Positions 16,831-33,180 of a stretch of DNA of 33,582 nt are shown here, one piece after another. The notes below the pieces were generated by a model. It had not been told where the DNA came from, ran no database searches, and saw only the letters and a program-made list of their open reading frames with translations. Location of the stretch: NCBI GenBank assembly GCA_027459665.1, contig DAIDHN010000044.1:1-33582 (forward strand), in the 5' to 3' direction. Within the stretch, counting starts at the first letter, position 1. Every line of letters starts with the position of its first letter. The position numbers and the translations under genes are program-made. This DNA is from Chthonomonadaceae bacterium. GTDB taxonomy: Bacteria; Armatimonadota; Chthonomonadetes; Chthonomonadales; Chthonomonadaceae.

Positions 16831-16864
16831 AATGTTTGCTTTTAATATTGCACAGGAGAATGCC

Positions 16865-18121
16865 GTGAGAATTCGTGACCTCAAAGAGAGCGGGCATGCG
16901 CCAACGCTGCTCAGTGCGTTTCTGCATTTCGATATATCGTTTGCCGTCTGGGTAATTCTGGGCGCACTCATGCCGTTTATAGCAAAAGGGCTGCACCTTT
17001 CCATTCCAGCCAAACTGACTCTCATTGCCGTACCCGCTCTTTCTGCAGGATTCTGGAGAATAGTGCTCGGCATACTGGTAGACCGCTATGGCGCAAAACC
17101 AGTAGGAACCGCCTCGCTTGCGCTCACTCTGCTGCCTCTTCTTGCAGGCTGGCTCTGGGCCAATTCGTACTCTTCCCTTTTTTACACAGCCTTCTTTCTG
17201 GGGCTGGCAGGCGCCTCTTTTGCAGTAGCGCTGCCCATGGCCTCGCGCTGGTATCCGCCGCAAATGCAGGGGGTGGCCCTGGGCATAGCGGGCGCAGGCA
17301 ATTCGGGCACGGTGCTGGCCACGCTGTTTGCTCCACTGCTGGCAAAGCATTATGGCTGGCACGCTGCCCTAGGCATGCTTATGGCTCCTGTAGCCTTGGT
17401 TCTGCTTGCATTTGTTACACTCTCTAAAGAGCCGCCTATTAAAAAACAACCGGTTACTGCCGCCGCTTTCGGCAAATTGCTGCAGCAGGCCGATACCTGG
17501 CGCTTCTGCCTGCTCTACTTTGTTACCTTTGGCGGCTTTGTAGGCATGTCGCTTTTCTTCAACACCTTTTTTGTAGACCAATACCATATTCCCATGGCAC
17601 AGGCAGGTCTCTACACTGCTCCCTTTATCATTCTTGGTTCATTTCTGCGGCCGGTAGGCGGAGCGCTGGCCGACCGCTTTGGCGGAATACGGGTGCTGTA
17701 CGCCGTGTATGCCTCCGTTGTTCTTTGCTGCCTGCTTATGGCTGCTCTCCTCACATCATTTGCGCTCTCGGCAGTTATCCTCTTCTGCATGATGGGCATG
17801 CTTGGCGCAGGAAACGGGGCGGTGTTTCAGCTGGTACCCCTGCGCTTTCGCATGGAAATCGGCATCATGACCGGCATTGTAGGTGCAGCAGGCGGTGAGG
17901 GCGGCTTCTATCTCAACATGGCTATGGGGCATCTGCACAAGCTTTCGCACAGCTACGCTGCGGGCTTTCTTGCATTCGGCACTACTGCCATAGCCGCACT
18001 GATCACGCTGAAACTTGCAGCGCCGGTATGGAACCAGCTGCTGCTCAAACTGGCCCGTGCACAACAACTGCCTGAATACGCCGCAGTGCAGTCTGCCCCT
18101 GCCACCGCCGAGGCAGGGTAG
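16865..18121 (+). CDS. narK: Nitrate/nitrite MFS transporter (NarK/NasA family)
   Basis: The 418-residue membrane protein should import nitrate, and perhaps exchange nitrite, for assimilation. About 12 hydrophobic segments are visible. The two nitrate-porter signatures are GIAGAGNSGT in the first half and GAAGGEGGF in the second. Arginines in FWRIVLGILVDRYG and FLRPVGGALADRFG match the two that bind substrate in this family. I chose the GTG at 16865 because AGGAG (16854-16858) lies six bases before it; an in-frame ATG at 16832 would run into the leader's 3' end and has no ribosome binding site. The gene heads the nitrate operon, with nirB starting 12 bases after its stop. Confidence 0.92.
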   Translation: MRIRDLKESGHAPTLLSAFLHFDISFAVWVILGALMPFIAKGLHLSIPAKLTLIAVPALSAGFWRIVLGILVDRYGAKPVGTASLALTLLPLLAGWLWANSYSSLFYTAFFLGLAGASFAVALPMASRWYPPQMQGVALGIAGAGNSGTVLATLFAPLLAKHYGWHAALGMLMAPVALVLLAFVTLSKEPPIKKQPVTAAAFGKLLQQADTWRFCLLYFVTFGGFVGMSLFFNTFFVDQYHIPMAQAGLYTAPFIILGSFLRPVGGALADRFGGIRVLYAVYASVVLCCLLMAALLTSFALSAVILFCMMGMLGAGNGAVFQLVPLRFRMEIGIMTGIVGAAGGEGGFYLNMAMGHLHKLSHSYAAGFLAFGTTAIAALITLKLAAPVWNQLLLKLARAQQLPEYAAVQSAPATAEAG

Positions 18122-18132
18122 AAAGGAACAAC

Positions 18133-20589
18133 ATGAACGCACAAAACAAACAGCGCCTGGTAGTCATAGGCAATGGCATGGCAGGCATGCGCGCTGTAGA
18201 AGAGATACTGGAACGAGGCGGAGCAGAACAATTTCAGATCACCGTTTTTGGCGATGAGCCATATGGCAACTACAACCGTATTTTGCTCAGCAACGTTCTC
18301 AACGGAAGCCAGGATGCCTCCGACATTTTTCTCAACCCGCTGCCCTGGTATGCCCGCAATAACATTACACTGTATGCGGGCGTGCGCGCAGCACGCATCA
18401 ACAGAAACGAAAAGCAGATAACTGGTTCTGATGGAACCACTGTGTACTATGATAAGCTGCTTATTGCCACAGGCAGCAGCCCATTTGTGCCACCCATTAA
18501 GAACCTGTATGAAGAAGAAAAACGCCTGCGGCATGGAGTGTATGTATTTCGCACTCTGGATGACTGTACTCACATTGCAGGCTATGCAGTAAAATGCAAG
18601 CGCGCAGTAGTAATAGGCGGCGGGCTGCTGGGGCTGGAAGCGGCGCGCGGGCTGCTGAACTATGGCGCACATGTTACCGTAGTGCACAACATGCCCTACT
18701 TGATGAACGCACAGCTGGATGCACAGGGCGCGGCAATTTTGCAAAACACCCTGGAACGAATGGGTATTGCCTTTCGCCTCAATGCAAATACGTCGAAAGT
18801 GCTGGGAGAAGATGCCGTAACCGGGCTGGAATTTGATGACGGAACCCAGCTTTCATCTGAAATGATTGTGATTTCTGCAGGCATTCGCCCAAACACCAGC
18901 CTTGCTGCCGAGTGCGGGCTTACTGTAGAACGGGGTATTGTTGCAGACGATACCATGCGCTCGGTAGATGACCCCAATATATATGTGGTGGGAGAATGCG
19001 CACAGCACCGTGGCAAGGTGTACGGGCTGGTGGCTCCTTTATGGGAACAGGCGCAGACTCTGGCCGACCACATTACCGGGCGCAATTTGTTTGCCGTGTA
19101 TGCCGGCTCGCGCATAGCCACAAAACTGAAGGTAATGGGGGTGGAACTCGCCTCGATGGGCTGTACAGAAGCTTCCGACAGCCAGGATGAAGTGGTGGTT
19201 TACTCTGAGCCGAAACGGGGCATTTACAAAAAACTGATTGTGCGCAGCAACCAGCTCGCCGGAGCCATACTGCTGGGAGATTCGGGAAAGGCGGCACATC
19301 TCATGCAGATATTCGACCGGCAGTCGGAACTGCCCGAAGACCGCACCCAGCTGCTTTTCGATATTGGCCCCGCAGCAAGCGCCCCTCCCCTGCTGGAAAT
19401 GCCGGATGAAACACAGATATGCAACTGCAGCGGGGTAAGCAAAGGAACATTGCGCAAATGCGCCCTCAGCGGCATACGCACGGTAAAAGGGGTAATGGAA
19501 GCCACCCGCGCAGGCATGGGATGCGGTTCGTGCCGCCCACTGGTAAAGGAAATTGTAGAGTGGGCGTGTGAAGGCAGATTGGAAGAAGACCCCTCGGTAC
19601 ACTACTATGTACCGGGAGTGCCTTTGGCAAAACCCGAACTGGTAGAGGCTGTACTGGCCCAGAAACTCAAATCGGTTTCGGCAGTATTCAACGCGCTGGC
19701 AGACGGCAAAGAAGACCCCGGCAGCAAGCCCGGCCTTGCCTCGCTGCTCAAAACAATATGGGCAGGCGAGTATGAGGACGAAAGAGACGCCCGCTTCATT
19801 AACGACCGGGTGCATGCCAACATTCAGAACGATGGAACCTTCTCGGTTGTTCCGCGCATCTATGGCGGCGTCACCTCGCCTGCCCAGCTGCGCCGCATAG
19901 CCGAAGTGGCTGAAAAATACGAAGTGCCCATGGTCAAAATCACAGGAGGGCAGCGCATTGACCTGCTGGGCATAAAAAAAGAAGACCTGCCCCGCGTATG
20001 GAAAGACCTGGGGATGCCCTCTGGCCATGCCTATGCAAAATCATTTCGCACCTGCAAAACCTGTGTGGGCACAGAGTTCTGCCGTTATGGCCTGGGCGAC
20101 AGCACTGCTTTAGGCATACAGATAGAAAAGCGTTTTCAGGGGCTGGAAAGCCCCGCCAAGCTGAAGCTTGCCACCGCAGGCTGCCCGCGCAACTGCTCTG
20201 AAGCAATGGTGAAAGATGTAGGGGCGGTGGCAGTAGAAGGAGGTAAATGGGAGATTTATGTAGGGGGAGCCGCCGGAGCGCATGTGCGCAAGGGCGACTT
20301 GCTCTGCACAGCAGACAGCCATGAACAGGTGCTGCAAATGATGGGTAGATTCATGCAGTACTACCGTGAAAACGCAAAATACCTGGAACGCACCTATGGC
20401 TTTCTGGAGCGGGTTGGCATAGAAAAAGTGCGCGCTGTGGTAGTAGAAGACAGGGAAGGCATTGCAAAAAGACTGGATGAGGCTATGCAGGCAGGCATAG
20501 ACGCATACCGCGACCCGTGGCAGGAAGCGCACCAGACCCATACGCCGCATCAGTTTGCAGAAATGATTACTGCGGAGGGCACAATATGA
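18133..20589 (+). CDS. nirB: Assimilatory nitrite reductase [NAD(P)H], large subunit NirB
   Basis: NirB reduces nitrite to ammonium with six electrons from NAD(P)H in the cytoplasm. The 818-residue product has a FAD/NAD-binding oxidoreductase half: VVIGNGMAGMRAVEE at the N terminus, a second dinucleotide motif VVIGGGLLGLEAARG near residue 160. A BFD-like [2Fe-2S] domain follows, with Cys430, Cys432, Cys464 and Cys467. The C-terminal nitrite/sulfite reductase half has Cys644, Cys650, Cys684 and Cys688 for the coupled [4Fe-4S] cluster and siroheme. Length and order are typical. AAAGGA is five bases before the ATG. The stop overlaps the nirD start (ATGA). Confidence 0.97.
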   Translation: MNAQNKQRLVVIGNGMAGMRAVEEILERGGAEQFQITVFGDEPYGNYNRILLSNVLNGSQDASDIFLNPLPWYARNNITLYAGVRAARINRNEKQITGSDGTTVYYDKLLIATGSSPFVPPIKNLYEEEKRLRHGVYVFRTLDDCTHIAGYAVKCKRAVVIGGGLLGLEAARGLLNYGAHVTVVHNMPYLMNAQLDAQGAAILQNTLERMGIAFRLNANTSKVLGEDAVTGLEFDDGTQLSSEMIVISAGIRPNTSLAAECGLTVERGIVADDTMRSVDDPNIYVVGECAQHRGKVYGLVAPLWEQAQTLADHITGRNLFAVYAGSRIATKLKVMGVELASMGCTEASDSQDEVVVYSEPKRGIYKKLIVRSNQLAGAILLGDSGKAAHLMQIFDRQSELPEDRTQLLFDIGPAASAPPLLEMPDETQICNCSGVSKGTLRKCALSGIRTVKGVMEATRAGMGCGSCRPLVKEIVEWACEGRLEEDPSVHYYVPGVPLAKPELVEAVLAQKLKSVSAVFNALADGKEDPGSKPGLASLLKTIWAGEYEDERDARFINDRVHANIQNDGTFSVVPRIYGGVTSPAQLRRIAEVAEKYEVPMVKITGGQRIDLLGIKKEDLPRVWKDLGMPSGHAYAKSFRTCKTCVGTEFCRYGLGDSTALGIQIEKRFQGLESPAKLKLATAGCPRNCSEAMVKDVGAVAVEGGKWEIYVGGAAGAHVRKGDLLCTADSHEQVLQMMGRFMQYYRENAKYLERTYGFLERVGIEKVRAVVVEDREGIAKRLDEAMQAGIDAYRDPWQEAHQTHTPHQFAEMITAEGTI

Positions 20590-22091: not shown

Positions 22092-24179
22092 ATGACAGCC
22101 ACCCCCACCCACTGCCCCTACTGTGCCCTGCAATGCGGCATGTATCTGGTTGAACGCAATGGCGCGGTGCAGGTAGAGGCACGCCAGTTTCCCACCAACA
22201 AGGGAGGGCTTTGCCGCAAGGGATGGACTTCGGCAGAACTGCTAGCACACCCCGACCGCCTGACAGTTCCGCTGCTTCGCACTCAAAAAGATGCGCCCCT
22301 GCAGCAGGTATCCTGGCCGCATGCTCTCGATTTTCTGGTGAAGCGCCTGCAGCATATTCAGCAGGAATATGGCCCTGAAAGTGCAGGGGTGTTTGGCGGA
22401 GGCGGCCTCACCAACGAAAGCGCCTACCTGCTGGGCAAATTTGCGCGTGTAGCTCTGCGCACCCCGCACATTGACTACAACGGGCGCTACTGCATGTCTT
22501 CTGCAGCTGCGGCGGCAAACCGCGCCTTCGGGCTGGATAGAGGGATGCCGTTCCCTGTTGCCGATATTGCTGAGGCAGAGGTTGTACTGCTGGCAGGCGG
22601 CAATCCAGCTGCAGCAATGCCCCCCATTATGCAGTATTTTGAGCAGCAAAAAGCGCGAGGCGGCACACTCATTGTGTGCGACCCGCGCAGAACCGCTACC
22701 GCCGCCATGGCCACACTGCACCTGCAGCCGGTGCCGGGGACCGATATGGCGCTGGCATATGGCATTCTGCACATCGCCTCCAGAGAAAATTTGCTTGACC
22801 ATGCTTTTATACGTGAGCGCACCAGCGGCTTTGAAGAACTGCGAGCACAAATTGCTGCTTTCTGGCCAGAACGCTCAGAACGAATCACCGGCGTGCCTGC
22901 TGCGCAGATTCAGCAGGCCGCCAGAATGCTTGGCCATGCAGAGCGCGCCATTCTGCTTACAGCACGAGGAGTGGAACAGCAAAGCAAAGGGGTAGACAAT
23001 GCCCTGGCCTTCATCAATGTAGCGCTGGCGCTGGGGCATGCCGGCAAAACGGGCAGCGGATGGGGATGCATAACAGGGCAGGGAAACGGACAGGGAGGAC
23101 GTGAGCATGGCCAGAAAGCAGACCAGCTCCCTGGGTACCGCTCACTCGCCAACCCAAAACACCGCGCAGAAGTGGCCGCAGTGTGGGGAATCGACCCGGA
23201 TGCGCTGCCCGGACCGGGGCTTTCTGCACAAGAACTGCTGGAAGGCATTGGAGAAGAAGGCGGCATAAAAGCGCTGCTGGTGATAGGCTCTAACCCAGCA
23301 GTCTCTGCTGCAAGCGCCGGGGTGGTGCAGAAACGGCTGGAGCAGCTGAACCTGCTGGCCGTTGCAGACTTCTTTCTCTCTGAAACCGCTCAAAAAGCTG
23401 ATGTCGTGCTGCCGGTGGCACAGTGGGCTGAAATGGAGGGCACCATGACCAATCTGGAAGGCAGAGTGATTCGCCGCCGCCGGGCGCTGCCGCCCCCGCC
23501 CGGCATTCCTGCAGATGCCGCCCTCATTGCAGAACTGGCTGAGCGCATGGGGTTTCGGGCACAGTTTCCAAAAGATGCCGAAGCGGTGTTTGAAGAGCTT
23601 TGCAGGGCATCGGCAGGAGGGCTGGCAGATTACGCCGGCCTGAGCTGGAAACGAATAGAGCGCGAAGAGGGCGTTTTCTGGCCCTGCCCCGCCCCGTCGC
23701 ATCCCGGCACACCCCGCCTTTTTCTCGACCGCTTTGCTCACCCAGACGGCAGGGCGAAATTTCATGCTGTGCGCTACCGCCCCGCCGCCGAAGAGCCTTG
23801 TTCACTCTATCCCCTTTACCTAACTACTGGCAGAATCATGGCACAGTACCAGTCGGGGGTACAAACACGACGCGTACGCACACTGCATGACATGGCCCCC
23901 GAAGCGTTTGTAGAGCTGCACCCTCAACTTGCCCAGCAGCATGGCATACCCGAAGGGGGGCAGGTGCGCGTATCTACGCGCAGAGGCACTATCGAAGTAA
24001 AAGCACGAATCACCACAGACATTCGGCCCGACACCCTGTTTATTCCTTTTCACTTTGCAGGAAAAGGCTGTGCCAACCTGCTTACCAACTCTGCGCTGGA
24101 CCCCATCTCTAAAATGCCCGAATTCAAGGTATGCGCTGCCCGAATAGAGGCTGTACTCACGCCTGCCGGCCAGAACTGA
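22092..24179 (+). CDS. nasA: Assimilatory nitrate reductase, molybdopterin type (NasA/NarB)
   Basis: The enzyme reduces nitrate to nitrite in the cytoplasm using bis-MGD molybdenum cofactor and one [4Fe-4S] cluster. The cluster ligands are Cys8, Cys11, Cys15 and Cys41, in CPYCALQCG and GGLCRKG. Cys134 in GRYCMSSA matches the molybdenum ligand of the Nap/Nas group. The C terminus has the dinucleotide-binding fold ending in FHFAGKGCANLLTNSALDP. At 695 residues it is short, like cyanobacterial NarB, and lacks the extra C-terminal flavin or BFD domains of some NasA. There is no obvious ribosome binding site; the start follows the preceding stop by three bases, so coupling is likely. It depends on Moco supply, relevant to the moa/mog genes at 28656-33180. 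Confidence 0.93.
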   Translation: MTATPTHCPYCALQCGMYLVERNGAVQVEARQFPTNKGGLCRKGWTSAELLAHPDRLTVPLLRTQKDAPLQQVSWPHALDFLVKRLQHIQQEYGPESAGVFGGGGLTNESAYLLGKFARVALRTPHIDYNGRYCMSSAAAAANRAFGLDRGMPFPVADIAEAEVVLLAGGNPAAAMPPIMQYFEQQKARGGTLIVCDPRRTATAAMATLHLQPVPGTDMALAYGILHIASRENLLDHAFIRERTSGFEELRAQIAAFWPERSERITGVPAAQIQQAARMLGHAERAILLTARGVEQQSKGVDNALAFINVALALGHAGKTGSGWGCITGQGNGQGGREHGQKADQLPGYRSLANPKHRAEVAAVWGIDPDALPGPGLSAQELLEGIGEEGGIKALLVIGSNPAVSAASAGVVQKRLEQLNLLAVADFFLSETAQKADVVLPVAQWAEMEGTMTNLEGRVIRRRRALPPPPGIPADAALIAELAERMGFRAQFPKDAEAVFEELCRASAGGLADYAGLSWKRIEREEGVFWPCPAPSHPGTPRLFLDRFAHPDGRAKFHAVRYRPAAEEPCSLYPLYLTTGRIMAQYQSGVQTRRVRTLHDMAPEAFVELHPQLAQQHGIPEGGQVRVSTRRGTIEVKARITTDIRPDTLFIPFHFAGKGCANLLTNSALDPISKMPEFKVCAARIEAVLTPAGQN

Positions 24180-28655: not shown

Positions 28656-29615
28656 TCATTCTGGAGAATGCCGGTTTTGCTGCAGGTATGCAAGTTGTGC
28701 TGCAAGGTAGACGGTTTTTACGGGCGTTTTGTGCTGCACTGCAGCAGCGCGTACATCTTCATATTCGGGTGAGGCAGTAGTTTCTTCTCCCCGGTACATG
28801 CCTGTTTTCACACGAATAGGGCCGTATTCTGTTTGCACGGTGTGCCAGCTGCGCTTCAAAACCACGCGCTGGGCAGCGCTGCACCGCACCCCTAGGGTAG
28901 TGGTTTCACAAAACAGAATTTGTATCAGTTCCTCCCGTTTGCCTGCCGGCGCCAGCACGGTAAGCAAGGTAGCCGGCCTTTGCTTTTTCATTTGCACCGG
29001 GGTCAAAAACACATCCAGCGCCCCTGCTGCAAAAAGCCTTGCCATTGTCTCTTCATAAAACTCAGGGGAAAAATCGTCCAGATTAGCCTGCAGCGTTTCT
29101 ACCATATCGGTACTGTCGAGGTCAGGGCGCGCTGCCGGGTGCGGTGCCGGCTGCTCCTGCAGCAGGCTGAGCGCATGGGGCAGAAGCGGTAAAAGCAGCT
29201 CTATGTTTTCACGCACTGCATTTGGGCTGCCGGGCAGATTCACCAGAAATGTGCTGCCTGCTATGCCGGCCACTCCTCTGGAAAGCGCAGCAGCAGGCTG
29301 CCGCCTGCCACCTTCACGGCGGAGCATTTCGGCTATTCCGGGCGCTTCCCGTTCTATTACCCGCCGGGTTGCCTCGGGGGTGACATCGCGGGGAGCAAAG
29401 CCTGTGCCCCCGGTAGTAAACACCGCCGCCACCCCATCTGCCACCCATTTGCGCAGCAGCATCTCAATGCCGTCTTCATTGTCTGCACACACAGCATGCT
29501 CCACCACCTGCCAGCCTGCTTCCTGCAGCATTTGCACCAGCAACGTACCAGAGCGGTCTTCCTGTTCTCCTGCCGCACACCTGTCGCTCACTGTAAGTGC
29601 CGCCATTTTCATCAT
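28656..29615 (-). CDS. MogA/MoaB domain fused to LarC C-terminal (LarC2) domain
   Basis: The 319-residue protein joins two cofactor enzymes. Residues 1-155 are a MogA/MoaB domain, which adenylylates molybdopterin before molybdenum insertion; its signature TTGGTGFAPRDVTPEAT is at 67-83 and NLPGSPNAVREN at 126-137. Residues ~170-312 match the C-terminal domain of LarC, the CTP-dependent nickel insertase that completes the lactate racemase pincer cofactor: ETLQANLDDFSPEF, GALDVFLTPVQMKKQRP, ETTTLGVR, YGPIRVK and SPEYEDVRAAA. The LarC N-terminal domain is absent, as are larA, larB and larE in the window. The start overlaps the TlpA-HEAT stop (ATGATGA). A joint role in metal insertion into a sulfur-ligand cofactor is possible but inferred. 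Confidence 0.9.
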   Translation of the reverse strand: MMKMAALTVSDRCAAGEQEDRSGTLLVQMLQEAGWQVVEHAVCADNEDGIEMLLRKWVADGVAAVFTTGGTGFAPRDVTPEATRRVIEREAPGIAEMLRREGGRRQPAAALSRGVAGIAGSTFLVNLPGSPNAVRENIELLLPLLPHALSLLQEQPAPHPAARPDLDSTDMVETLQANLDDFSPEFYEETMARLFAAGALDVFLTPVQMKKQRPATLLTVLAPAGKREELIQILFCETTTLGVRCSAAQRVVLKRSWHTVQTEYGPIRVKTGMYRGEETTASPEYEDVRAAAVQHKTPVKTVYLAAQLAYLQQNRHSPE

Positions 29616-30802
29616 GATTTGCCTTCCGCCTGAGCAAGTGCTGCAAGATACGGCTCAGGAGTGCGCGGCCCGCCCTGCCAAATATGGGTAATTCTGCCCT
29701 GCGGGTCAATCAAAACCGTATCGGGCACATCTTCTATGCTGCCAAACTGGCGCAGTATTCTTCTGTCTGCAAGCGCCTGCGGGAAGGTAATGCCATGCTC
29801 CCTGCACCATTTTTTCACCCCTCTGCTATCGCCGTTTGCTGCTGTGACCACACCCAGCACAGTTGCATTCTGACCTTTAATCTGGTTGTAAACAGCCTCT
29901 ATAGAAGGTATCTCATGGTTGCATGGATCACACCCAACACCCCAAAAATAGAGCAGCACGGCCCGGCCTTTCAAACTAGACCGGTTGATGACCCTGCCAT
30001 CTACCGATACCGCAGAAAAATTCGGGCAGGGCTGGGTGCGCGTTACAGGCGGCGGCACAAGGTTTTCAAAACCAGGCGCTGTTTTCCAGTTCTCTTTTTT
30101 GCCCTGCCACCACTGCAGCCACTTTTCAGAAACAGCCGCCCTCTGCGCCACAGGGGCCAGGCGGGAAACATGCCAGTTGTTGCCGGTCGCAATGCACAGC
30201 GCCATGGTAGAAAACTGCACAACATCGCCATCTCTGCTTTGCAGCCCGTTCATCAGCCCTGGTACGAGGTTATGGTTCATTGGGCTTTTTCTGTGCCGCT
30301 CAACCCACTGCACCGCCAGACTGGATGCCGCTTCTGCCTGCCAGGGGTCGGGGTCGTTGATTTCCGCCATTATTGTCTGCAGCCCTTTTTGCAAATTCAG
30401 TACTGGCAGCACCTCCAGGGCACGCTTGCGAACCACCGAATCGTCGTCCTGCAATCCCTGCTCCACCACCTGCAACACCTGCGGAGGAGGCTGAACTCTG
30501 GCCCTGCCCGGCTGATGATACATATTTCCCAATTCATCAATCACGGCGTAGCGCAGCCCTGCGCTCGGGCTGTTCACAAGGTTCAGTAAAAGAGACAGGC
30601 GAGAGGCTTGGGGCGTTTTGTGCAGCAGCTTTCTCAGCGCATTGGGGCTTTGCTCGCTGTTGCCGTAGAGTGGATTGATTTTAGTATGATGCATTTGAAC
30701 ATATCGGTACCCAAGTGCGACGGCAATCAATACCAAGCCTGCCAACACCCATGCCGGCTTTATGCCAGCACCCTGTGCAGCAGATAGCTCATTGTCTTGC
30801 AT
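29612..30802 (-). CDS. Membrane-anchored HEAT-repeat protein with C-terminal TlpA-like thioredoxin domain
   Basis: The 396-residue product has one N-terminal membrane segment (AWVLAGLVLIAVALGYRYV, residues ~18-36), putting the rest outside the cytoplasm. Residues ~55-230 are HEAT repeats, for example DDDSVVRKRALEVLPVLN and DPWQAEAASSLAVQWVE. The last ~140 residues are a TlpA/ResA-type thioredoxin fold with the redox motif CDPC in LYFWGVGCDPCNHEIPS and the cis-proline segment IEDVPDTVLID. Start at 30802 is supported by AAAGGAGG eight bases upstream; an in-frame ATG at 30826 would precede that site. It overlaps mogA-larC2 by four bases and has its own promoter. It may transfer thiol electrons to a partner held by the HEAT part. 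Confidence 0.85.
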   Translation of the reverse strand: MQDNELSAAQGAGIKPAWVLAGLVLIAVALGYRYVQMHHTKINPLYGNSEQSPNALRKLLHKTPQASRLSLLLNLVNSPSAGLRYAVIDELGNMYHQPGRARVQPPPQVLQVVEQGLQDDDSVVRKRALEVLPVLNLQKGLQTIMAEINDPDPWQAEAASSLAVQWVERHRKSPMNHNLVPGLMNGLQSRDGDVVQFSTMALCIATGNNWHVSRLAPVAQRAAVSEKWLQWWQGKKENWKTAPGFENLVPPPVTRTQPCPNFSAVSVDGRVINRSSLKGRAVLLYFWGVGCDPCNHEIPSIEAVYNQIKGQNATVLGVVTAANGDSRGVKKWCREHGITFPQALADRRILRQFGSIEDVPDTVLIDPQGRITHIWQGGPRTPEPYLAALAQAEGKS

Positions 30803-30841
30803 AACACAGCCTCCTTTGTATCGCACGGTAAAAACACATTG

Positions 30842-31583: not shown

Positions 31584-32021
31584 TCACCTCTCTTCCGAAG
31601 CCGGAAACGCCTCTTCTCCTTCTATCCACCATGTTCCGTCTGGGCAGGTTTCCCGTTTCCATATGGGCACCAGAGCCTTCAGGGTATCTATGCAGTACCT
31701 GCACGCCTCAAAAGCCTCTGCCCGATGCGGTGCGCTCACGGCTACAGCAACGCTGGCATCTCCCGGTTTCATAATGCCCAGGCGGTGCCACAACGCTACC
31801 TGGCATCCCCAGCGTTTTTCAGCATCCTCTGCCACACGCAGCAGCTGTTTTTCTGCAAGAGGCATATAGGCACGATACTCTAGTGAGGCCACCTGCTTTC
31901 CGCGTGAATGGTTGCGTACCTGCCCTATAAATACACACACCGCCCCATGTTCGTCCGGCGCGATGCGCGCTTCCAGTGCATCCCTGTTCAATGGGGTATC
32001 TACAATTTCGGCACTTGCCAT
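31584..32021 (-). CDS. moaE: Molybdopterin synthase catalytic subunit MoaE
   Basis: MoaE pairs with thiocarboxylated MoaD and puts two sulfurs into cyclic pyranopterin monophosphate to make molybdopterin. The 145-residue product has normal length. The conserved segment DTLKALVPIWKRE holds Lys115 and Lys122, matching the active-site lysines of E. coli MoaE, and GAVCVFIGQVRNHSRG and LEYRAYMPLAEKQL are typical. I chose the ATG at 32021 because GGAGGA stands ten bases before it and because homologues start here. That ribosome binding site is made of the last two codons of the upstream Nfo-MoaD gene, so the two subunits are expressed in a linked way. Confidence 0.95.
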   Translation of the reverse strand: MASAEIVDTPLNRDALEARIAPDEHGAVCVFIGQVRNHSRGKQVASLEYRAYMPLAEKQLLRVAEDAEKRWGCQVALWHRLGIMKPGDASVAVAVSAPHRAEAFEACRYCIDTLKALVPIWKRETCPDGTWWIEGEEAFPASEER

Positions 32022-32028
32022 TCTGCAA

Positions 32029-33180
32029 TTATCCTCCGCTGGAGGGGGGCAGCGCTGCAACGCGGTCTCCCTCGCACAGCAGGGTTCCCCGTTCAGCAAA
32101 CTCATGGTTCACGGCAAACTGGCAGCAGGCAGACAGCCCTGCCAGGCGGGCATCCTTCTGTTCCAGAATTTCAGCCAGCTGCTGCAGGCTTGTGTTTTCG
32201 GGCAGTTCCATCTGCAGCAAAGGGCCAGCCTCGCTAAAATGCCCGCACAATTCTACTTCCACAAAAACCCCAGTGCCACCGGCAGCAAGCCTTTGCAGCA
32301 GTGCCACATTTACCTGATGCATAGTATGTGCATCAGGGGTTTCTACTACCACAGGCACATGCTGCAAACGCGCATCGCGCACCAGCCGGGCAAACGGTTT
32401 AAGGCCTATTTCCCCCTTGCCAATGTGCTCATGCCGGTCAACACGGCTGCCCAGCCCTTTTTTAGAGTCGTTGGCATGAATGATGCGCAGTGCAGAGAGA
32501 CCAACCTGTGCATCAAATTCTTTCAGGGTATTTTCCCAGGCATCTTCCGTACGCAAGTCATAGCCGGCGGCAAAGATATGGCAGGTATCCATGCAAACTC
32601 CAATACGCTGCTGGTGGTCTACCCCCTTCAGCACTGCGCCTAGCTGTTCAAAACGCCAGCCCAGGCCGGTGCCCTGCCCTGCTGTAGTTTCCAGCGCTAT
32701 TCCGGCAGTGCATCCGGCCGCATCTGTCTCTTCCAGAATGCGCACCAGGCTTTCAATCAGTCGCGCTACAGCCTCTTCCTCGCCTCTTTCCAGGTGCGCT
32801 CCCATGTGGGTCACTACCCAGGGTATTCCCAGTGCATGTGCGCGTTCCAGTTCTCCGCGAAACGCATTGCGCGACCTGTCTAGCACATCGGCATCTGGTG
32901 CAGCAAGGTTGATGAGGTATGAGTCATGTGCACAGAGAAAAGGCAGAGCCGTTTCTTCCCGTGCATTCTGAAAAGCGCGTATTTCCTCTTCAGCAAGCGG
33001 GGGATGGCTCCATTGGCGGGGGTTGCCGGTAAAAAGCTGAACTGCTGTGCAGCCGATTTCCCTGCCAGAAAGCAGGCAGGAGGAAAGTCCCCCTGAGGAG
33101 GGCATATGCGCCCCTATCAGACGCAACTGATTGGAGGGAGGCTCGCCCGGGGCGCTTCCCTCCGGTAATGCAGATTCCAT
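32029..33180 (-). CDS. Endonuclease IV (Nfo) fused to molybdopterin synthase small subunit (MoaD)
   Basis: The 383-residue protein has two unrelated parts. Residues ~20-300 are endonuclease IV, a three-zinc AP endonuclease of base excision repair, with all nine metal ligands in place: His85, His125, Glu164, Asp198, His201, His235, Asp248, His250 and Glu280. Residues 305-383 are a full MoaD: a beta-grasp fold with CCQFAVNHEF, EGDRVAALPP and the free C-terminal Gly-Gly that is thiocarboxylated by MoeB-type enzymes. There is hardly a linker. An in-frame GTG at 32262 (Val307), with only a poor upstream GGGG, might start a free MoaD. The reading frame is continuous and moaE follows. The ATG at 33180 adds ~20 residues to the usual Nfo start. 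Confidence 0.93.
   Translation of the reverse strand: MESALPEGSAPGEPPSNQLRLIGAHMPSSGGLSSCLLSGREIGCTAVQLFTGNPRQWSHPPLAEEEIRAFQNAREETALPFLCAHDSYLINLAAPDADVLDRSRNAFRGELERAHALGIPWVVTHMGAHLERGEEEAVARLIESLVRILEETDAAGCTAGIALETTAGQGTGLGWRFEQLGAVLKGVDHQQRIGVCMDTCHIFAAGYDLRTEDAWENTLKEFDAQVGLSALRIIHANDSKKGLGSRVDRHEHIGKGEIGLKPFARLVRDARLQHVPVVVETPDAHTMHQVNVALLQRLAAGGTGVFVEVELCGHFSEAGPLLQMELPENTSLQQLAEILEQKDARLAGLSACCQFAVNHEFAERGTLLCEGDRVAALPPSSGG
32032..32037 (-). promoter_or_regulatory. moaE ribosome binding site formed by the MoaD Gly-Gly codons
   Basis: The C-terminal Gly-Gly of the MoaD domain is encoded GGA GGA followed by TAA. This GGAGGA hexamer is a near-perfect Shine-Dalgarno sequence ten bases upstream of the moaE ATG. 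Ribosomes finishing MoaD therefore cover the moaE initiation region. Confidence 0.75.

Follow-up and report, generated by a model that had tools for sequence, protein, structure and literature searches.

LarC, the nickel insertase known from Lactiplantibacillus plantarum and Moorella thermoacetica (PDB 6bwo/6bwq/6bwr and 12bi), acts in the synthesis of the nickel-pincer nucleotide (NPN): the phosphate of the precursor P2TMN is cytidinylylated with CTP, nickel is inserted, and the phosphoanhydride is then hydrolysed (PMC11796402). About 15% of genomes, including those of many cyanobacteria, carry larBCE without larA, and cyanobacterial LarBCE proteins of this larA-less type make NPN in E. coli (PMC11796402). 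The molybdenum cofactor (Moco) pathway contains a comparable step, in which MogA, a trimer, adenylylates molybdopterin (MPT) and MoeA then inserts molybdate and cleaves off AMP; an aspartate pair (D49/D82 in MogA, D515/D548 in Cnx1G) is critical for the adenylylation (PMC9458074). The known fusion partners of the MogA/MoaB domain, which corresponds to the G-domains of Cnx1 and gephyrin (2is8, 1uuy), are MoeA (Cnx1, gephyrin) or MoaC (NF002947 MoaC/MoaB).

The window analysed here, a 33,582-nt stretch of DNA from a Chthonomonadaceae bacterium, encodes a different arrangement, i.e., a MogA/MoaB domain that bears at its C terminus the C-terminal domain of LarC (LarC2). The mogA-larC2 fusion gene (positions 28656..29615, minus strand) is an uninterrupted frame of 319 aa that starts with an ATG overlapping the upstream stop codon (ATGA). 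On the same strand, residues 1-156 (29148..29615) form the MogA/MoaB part (molybdopterin adenylyltransferase, G-domain), residues 157-169 (29109..29147) a linker of low confidence in the AlphaFold2 model that differs in length and sequence between species, and residues 170-315 (28671..29108) the LarC2 part. In a Pfam search with the fusion ORF, MoCF_biosynth (PF00994) aligned with residues 6-147 over profile positions 2-144 of 144 (E=1.3e-31), and Ni_insertion aligned with residues 138-303 through its positions 234-375, which are the LarC2 half only (E=1.6e-47). The NCBIfam LarC2 model (NF052512) matched residues 174-289 (E=1.9e-44). TIGR00177 scored above its cut-off, with the equivalog models of MogA and proteobacterial MoaB below their curated cut-offs. 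PDB sequence searches paired the N-terminal half with MoaB 2is8 (E=3e-40), MogA, and Cnx1G and the C-terminal half with LarC2 of 6bwo; the AlphaFold2 model (37-row input alignment, mean pLDDT 93.3, pTM 0.68) matched the folds of 1uuy/1uux (TMt 0.90-0.91) and 6bwo (TMt 0.70). The join of MogA/MoaB to the LarC C-terminal domain, read from the letters by the first-pass annotation, is thus confirmed by Pfam, NCBIfam, PDB, and fold match, and we hold this domain content with very high confidence. Pfam and NCBIfam found no LarC1 part in the ORF, and Pfam no MoeA E-domain of the Cnx1/gephyrin type, MoeA being a separate gene on another contig (C10). As a possible internal start for a free LarC2, Met171 of the window protein was discarded, as it is not conserved among the family fusions.

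The residues that mark each half are well preserved. Taking as near-invariant the LarC2 positions that reach at least 95% conservation among 96 one-piece LarC proteins, the window protein retains all 18, and every fusion retains nearly all. A Gln in place of Glu at residue 176 was dropped as a mark of lost or changed LarC2 function, the 96 one-piece LarC proteins having E in 88 cases and Q in 4. The MogA half keeps 38 of 40 conserved positions, the exceptions being F123 and L124 in place of Leu and Ile. It is a complete domain with both essential aspartates and the TGGTG and PGS loops; D45, D77, and S112 align with D515, D548, and S583 of Cnx1G.

The window contains no larA, larB, or larE, as the first-pass annotation had observed, and larB, larE, and larC1 are found elsewhere in the same genome (3.67 Mb, 99.9% complete). 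LarB lies on contig C41 (279 bits) and LarE on C56 (321 bits), both above cut-off. There are two Ni_insertion matches, namely LarC1 alone (profile positions 1-234) on C36, which keeps 38 of the 38 conserved LarC1 residues, and LarC2 in the fusion. The remaining Moco pathway genes, encoding MoaC (on C12), MoaE, and MoeA, are all present. MoCF domains number three, in CinA (L003), MoeA (L005, C10), and the fusion, which is accordingly the sole MogA as well as the sole LarC2 of the genome. LarA was not detected (no PF09861 match). The window genome thus resembles the larA-less NPN pathways (PMC11796402) in having LarB, LarC, and LarE, and differs from them in that its LarC is split and fused and that close relatives with the same fusion have LarA. 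The absence of LarC1, noted in the first pass, holds for the fusion protein but not for the cell, and since LarC1 is a separate gene its absence from the polypeptide is ruled out as a sign of new function. A full larABCE set with normal moeA and mogA had been named there as favouring a simple dual-function or accidental fusion; half of that complement is present, with larB, larC1, larE, and moeA found and larA and a separate mogA missing.

Compared with described LarC proteins, then, the likeness extends to the near-invariant LarC2 residues and to the accompanying LarB, LarE, and LarC1, and the difference lies in the unlinked LarC1 and LarC2 genes, the attachment of LarC2 to MogA, and the lack of LarA. 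No single polypeptide with both LarC1 and LarC2 was found in the window genome. Because the two parts are on separate genes, we class the protein as a LarC2-bearing fusion and not as LarC; together with LarC1 it probably forms a two-chain LarC. In both the window genome and G045 (see below), at L192:8050-9618 and L188:9212-10813, the gene just upstream of larC1 is a menaquinone-biosynthesis gene of the MqnA/MqnD family (PF02621), a neighbour not found beside larC1 in G043, G044, or G039.

The surroundings of the fusion point to Moco. On the same strand lie moaE, for the molybdopterin synthase large subunit (31584..32105), and an in-frame fusion of an endonuclease IV-like domain with a MoaD/ThiS domain ending in GG (32029..33180); on the plus strand, a molybdopterin oxidoreductase of the assimilatory nitrate reductase type (22092..24179) is a likely Moco user. 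The proximity of moaE, the MoaD domain, and the nitrate reductase provides supporting context for a dual function. Farther along are genes for a nitrite reductase (18133-20589) and an MFS transporter (16832-18121). Immediately upstream, and overlapping the fusion, is a minus-strand gene for HEAT repeats plus an AhpC-TSA/TlpA-like thioredoxin domain (29612..30826), which adjoins the fusion in 5 of the 12 family loci compared, the window included. No lar operon surrounds the fusion in the family loci compared, where its neighbours are non-lar genes. The ORF at 32029-33180, which overlaps moaE, has PF01261 at residues 40-287 and PF02597 at residues 323-383 with a stop-free stretch between them; it gives the window a second unusual fusion that involves a Moco gene.

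Across the family, LarC2 resides in a frame of 307 to 400 codons in all 17 Chthonomonadaceae genomes examined (11 genera), and in each of them that frame opens with a MogA domain, one copy (L051) ending at a contig edge. The fusion is therefore neither a chance product nor an assembly error. A scan of genome contigs with two short patterns, of which the best 80 matches were examined, yielded fusions only at L097-L099, which are of the Chthonomonadaceae type; the others were MogA or LarC alone. Matches at L134, L146, L155, and L158 that seemingly started inside a MogA part all turned out to be one-piece LarC. The survey for this architecture proposed at first pass thus finds it throughout the family and, among those 80 matches, nowhere outside it. 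No account of a MogA-LarC2 protein or of LarC2 fused to MogA emerged from a search of the open literature, in which few subscription papers were covered. The parts are known; what is new, and apparently unreported, is the division of LarC and the attachment of its C-terminal half to MogA, an arrangement that has become fixed in one family.

In the two other families of the order (f2, f3), the nearest relatives by genome, LarC is one-piece and MogA, where present, is free or joined to MoaC. The unfused condition, one-piece LarC with free MogA, is the likely ancestral state. In one sister-family genome, the MoaC-MogA fusion (G036:C55, L196), another kind of MogA fusion within this order, adjoins moeA. 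LarC2 domains from the family fusions group in one clade (support 80/93). Their MogA domains are placed close to the order's free MogA and not within a clade of 28 others (97/97), but the tree is poorly resolved and gives weak branch support to the fused MogA half having arisen once. The simplest history would be a single split of larC together with a single join to the resident mogA.

The partner genes accompany the fusion in most of the family. LarC1 was found in 15 of the 17 genomes, LarB in 16, LarE in 15, and MoeA in 15, and the LarC1 proteins from ten family genomes each agree with one-piece LarC at no fewer than 37 of its 38 conserved LarC1 residues. In the drafts G041 and G047 (97% and 94% complete), both of which have LarB, LarE, and the fusion, LarC1 was not found, nor was MoeA in the draft G051, which has the fusion. 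Nine genomes contain a LarA domain and eight, including the window genome and G045, do not. As none of the 17 has another LarC2, the nine LarA-bearing genomes probably rely on the fusion to make NPN for LarA.

Taken together, these data are best explained by a bifunctional cofactor-assembly protein, with MogA acting for Moco and LarC2 for NPN with LarC1 in trans, a reading we consider quite probable on sequence grounds. The MogA domain would adenylylate molybdopterin (MPT + ATP -> MPT-AMP), and a separate MoeA would use MPT-AMP for molybdate insertion. The LarC2 domain, as the half of LarC that uses CTP, would act with the separately encoded LarC1 in trans and with LarB and LarE to complete NPN, which in LarA-less members presumably serves another NPN protein. 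In the ancestor of the family, a one-piece larC would have been split once and its 3' half joined to the resident mogA. That one protein serves two cofactors, a possibility already raised in the first-pass annotation, is the preferred reading, since the genome has no MogA and no LarC2 apart from those in the fusion. Our confidence in the dual function is moderate, and in a benefit of the join, low. From sequence we infer both activities, a LarC1-LarC2 complex, and any advantage of linkage. The likeness of the MogA and LarC chemistries pointed out at first pass is borne out by the literature (PMC11796402, PMC9458074), and the evidence favours two parallel reactions carried out by a single chain, for which LarC1 and MoeA are separate partners.

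One closed genome of the family, G045 (L040, L177, L213, L261; a single 3.44-Mb contig, 99% complete), is particularly informative. Neither MoaC nor MoeA was found in it, and its sole molybdopterin-oxidoreductase match (PF00384) sits in an operon with complex I subunit genes and by context would be NuoG. The MogA half of its fusion is degenerate, having lost 11 of the 40 conserved positions, including D77, now Ala, and the PGS-loop Gly, now Phe, and lies on a long branch (2.28) in the tree. Its LarC2 half, in contrast, is intact, and LarC1, LarB, and LarE are present. Moco synthesis thus appears to have been lost in G045, and with MoaC and MoeA absent, MogA decayed, and LarC2 intact, LarC2 seems to have been kept without Moco. 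Although this concerns one lineage, it speaks against LarC2 as a Moco metal-insertion domain. The decayed MogA domain of G045 is still translated within the fusion.

The alternative that fares best accepts both activities and regards the fusion as neutral, a chance join after the larC split in which linkage means one mRNA and one polypeptide and the domains act as if free. It is consistent with the disordered, variable linker, with adjoining genes that are not lar genes, and with the decay of one half while the other stays in G045; however, the join has been retained in each of the 17 genomes, spread over 11 genera, even with one half dead, and the MogA half may persist as an oligomerisation or folding part. 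We regard this alternative as evenly balanced. It departs from the bifunctional reading on benefit only, not on activities, and neutrality and a weak benefit look the same at the level of sequence. We consider it scarcely probable that the join creates a shared platform, with MogA, LarC2, MoeA, and LarC1 in one particle coordinating both cofactors, or that LarC2 works in trans on a ligand derived from molybdopterin to give an undescribed cofactor. LarC2 was reportedly found to be hexameric in a 2018 paper on LarC, and its symmetry and that of trimeric MogA would be compatible in one particle.

The first-pass annotation had suggested a possible new metal-insertion enzyme, in which LarC2 takes on metal insertion into the Moco dithiolene by way of nucleotide activation. 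In the form considered here, CTP or AMP chemistry would aid the loading of the MPT dithiolene with a metal, be it molybdate, tungstate, or nickel, in keeping with the location of the gene among Moco genes in the window and with the fact that both domains nucleotidylylate the phosphate of a thiolate ligand before metal insertion (PMC11796402, PMC9458074). Yet a normal MoeA is encoded in 15 of the 17 family genomes, including the window genome, a complete LarB/LarE/LarC1 set is retained, and G045 keeps an intact LarC2 with MoaC, MoeA, and 11 of the 40 MogA residues gone, so that we consider reuse for Moco very unlikely; the data suggest two known pathways wired together, not a new metal chemistry. 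That the LarC2 half is a CTP- or metal-sensing regulatory module for the MogA half, outside NPN synthesis, would accord with the two draft genomes in which LarC1 was not found and the eight without LarA, but is most improbable given that all near-invariant LarC2 residues are retained, LarB, LarE, and LarC1 occur in 16, 15, and 15 of the 17 genomes, and LarC2 persists where MogA is degenerate.

As the sole source of both predicted activities in Chthonomonadaceae bacteria, the fusion physically joins two pathways that each nucleotidylylate a thiolate ligand before metal insertion. It also shows that LarC occurs in divided form, its LarC1 and LarC2 parts being encoded by unlinked genes; this predicts a two-chain LarC acting in trans and opens to direct test how the two parts share the work. 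Relatives with and without LarA, plus one that seems to be without Moco, provide natural controls, also for finding NPN proteins other than LarA. Finally, a single in-frame TGA is present in molybdopterin-oxidoreductase matches of five family genomes (G039:C43, G040:C248, G041:C549, G043:C178, and G044:C482), which are possible selenocysteine formate dehydrogenases.
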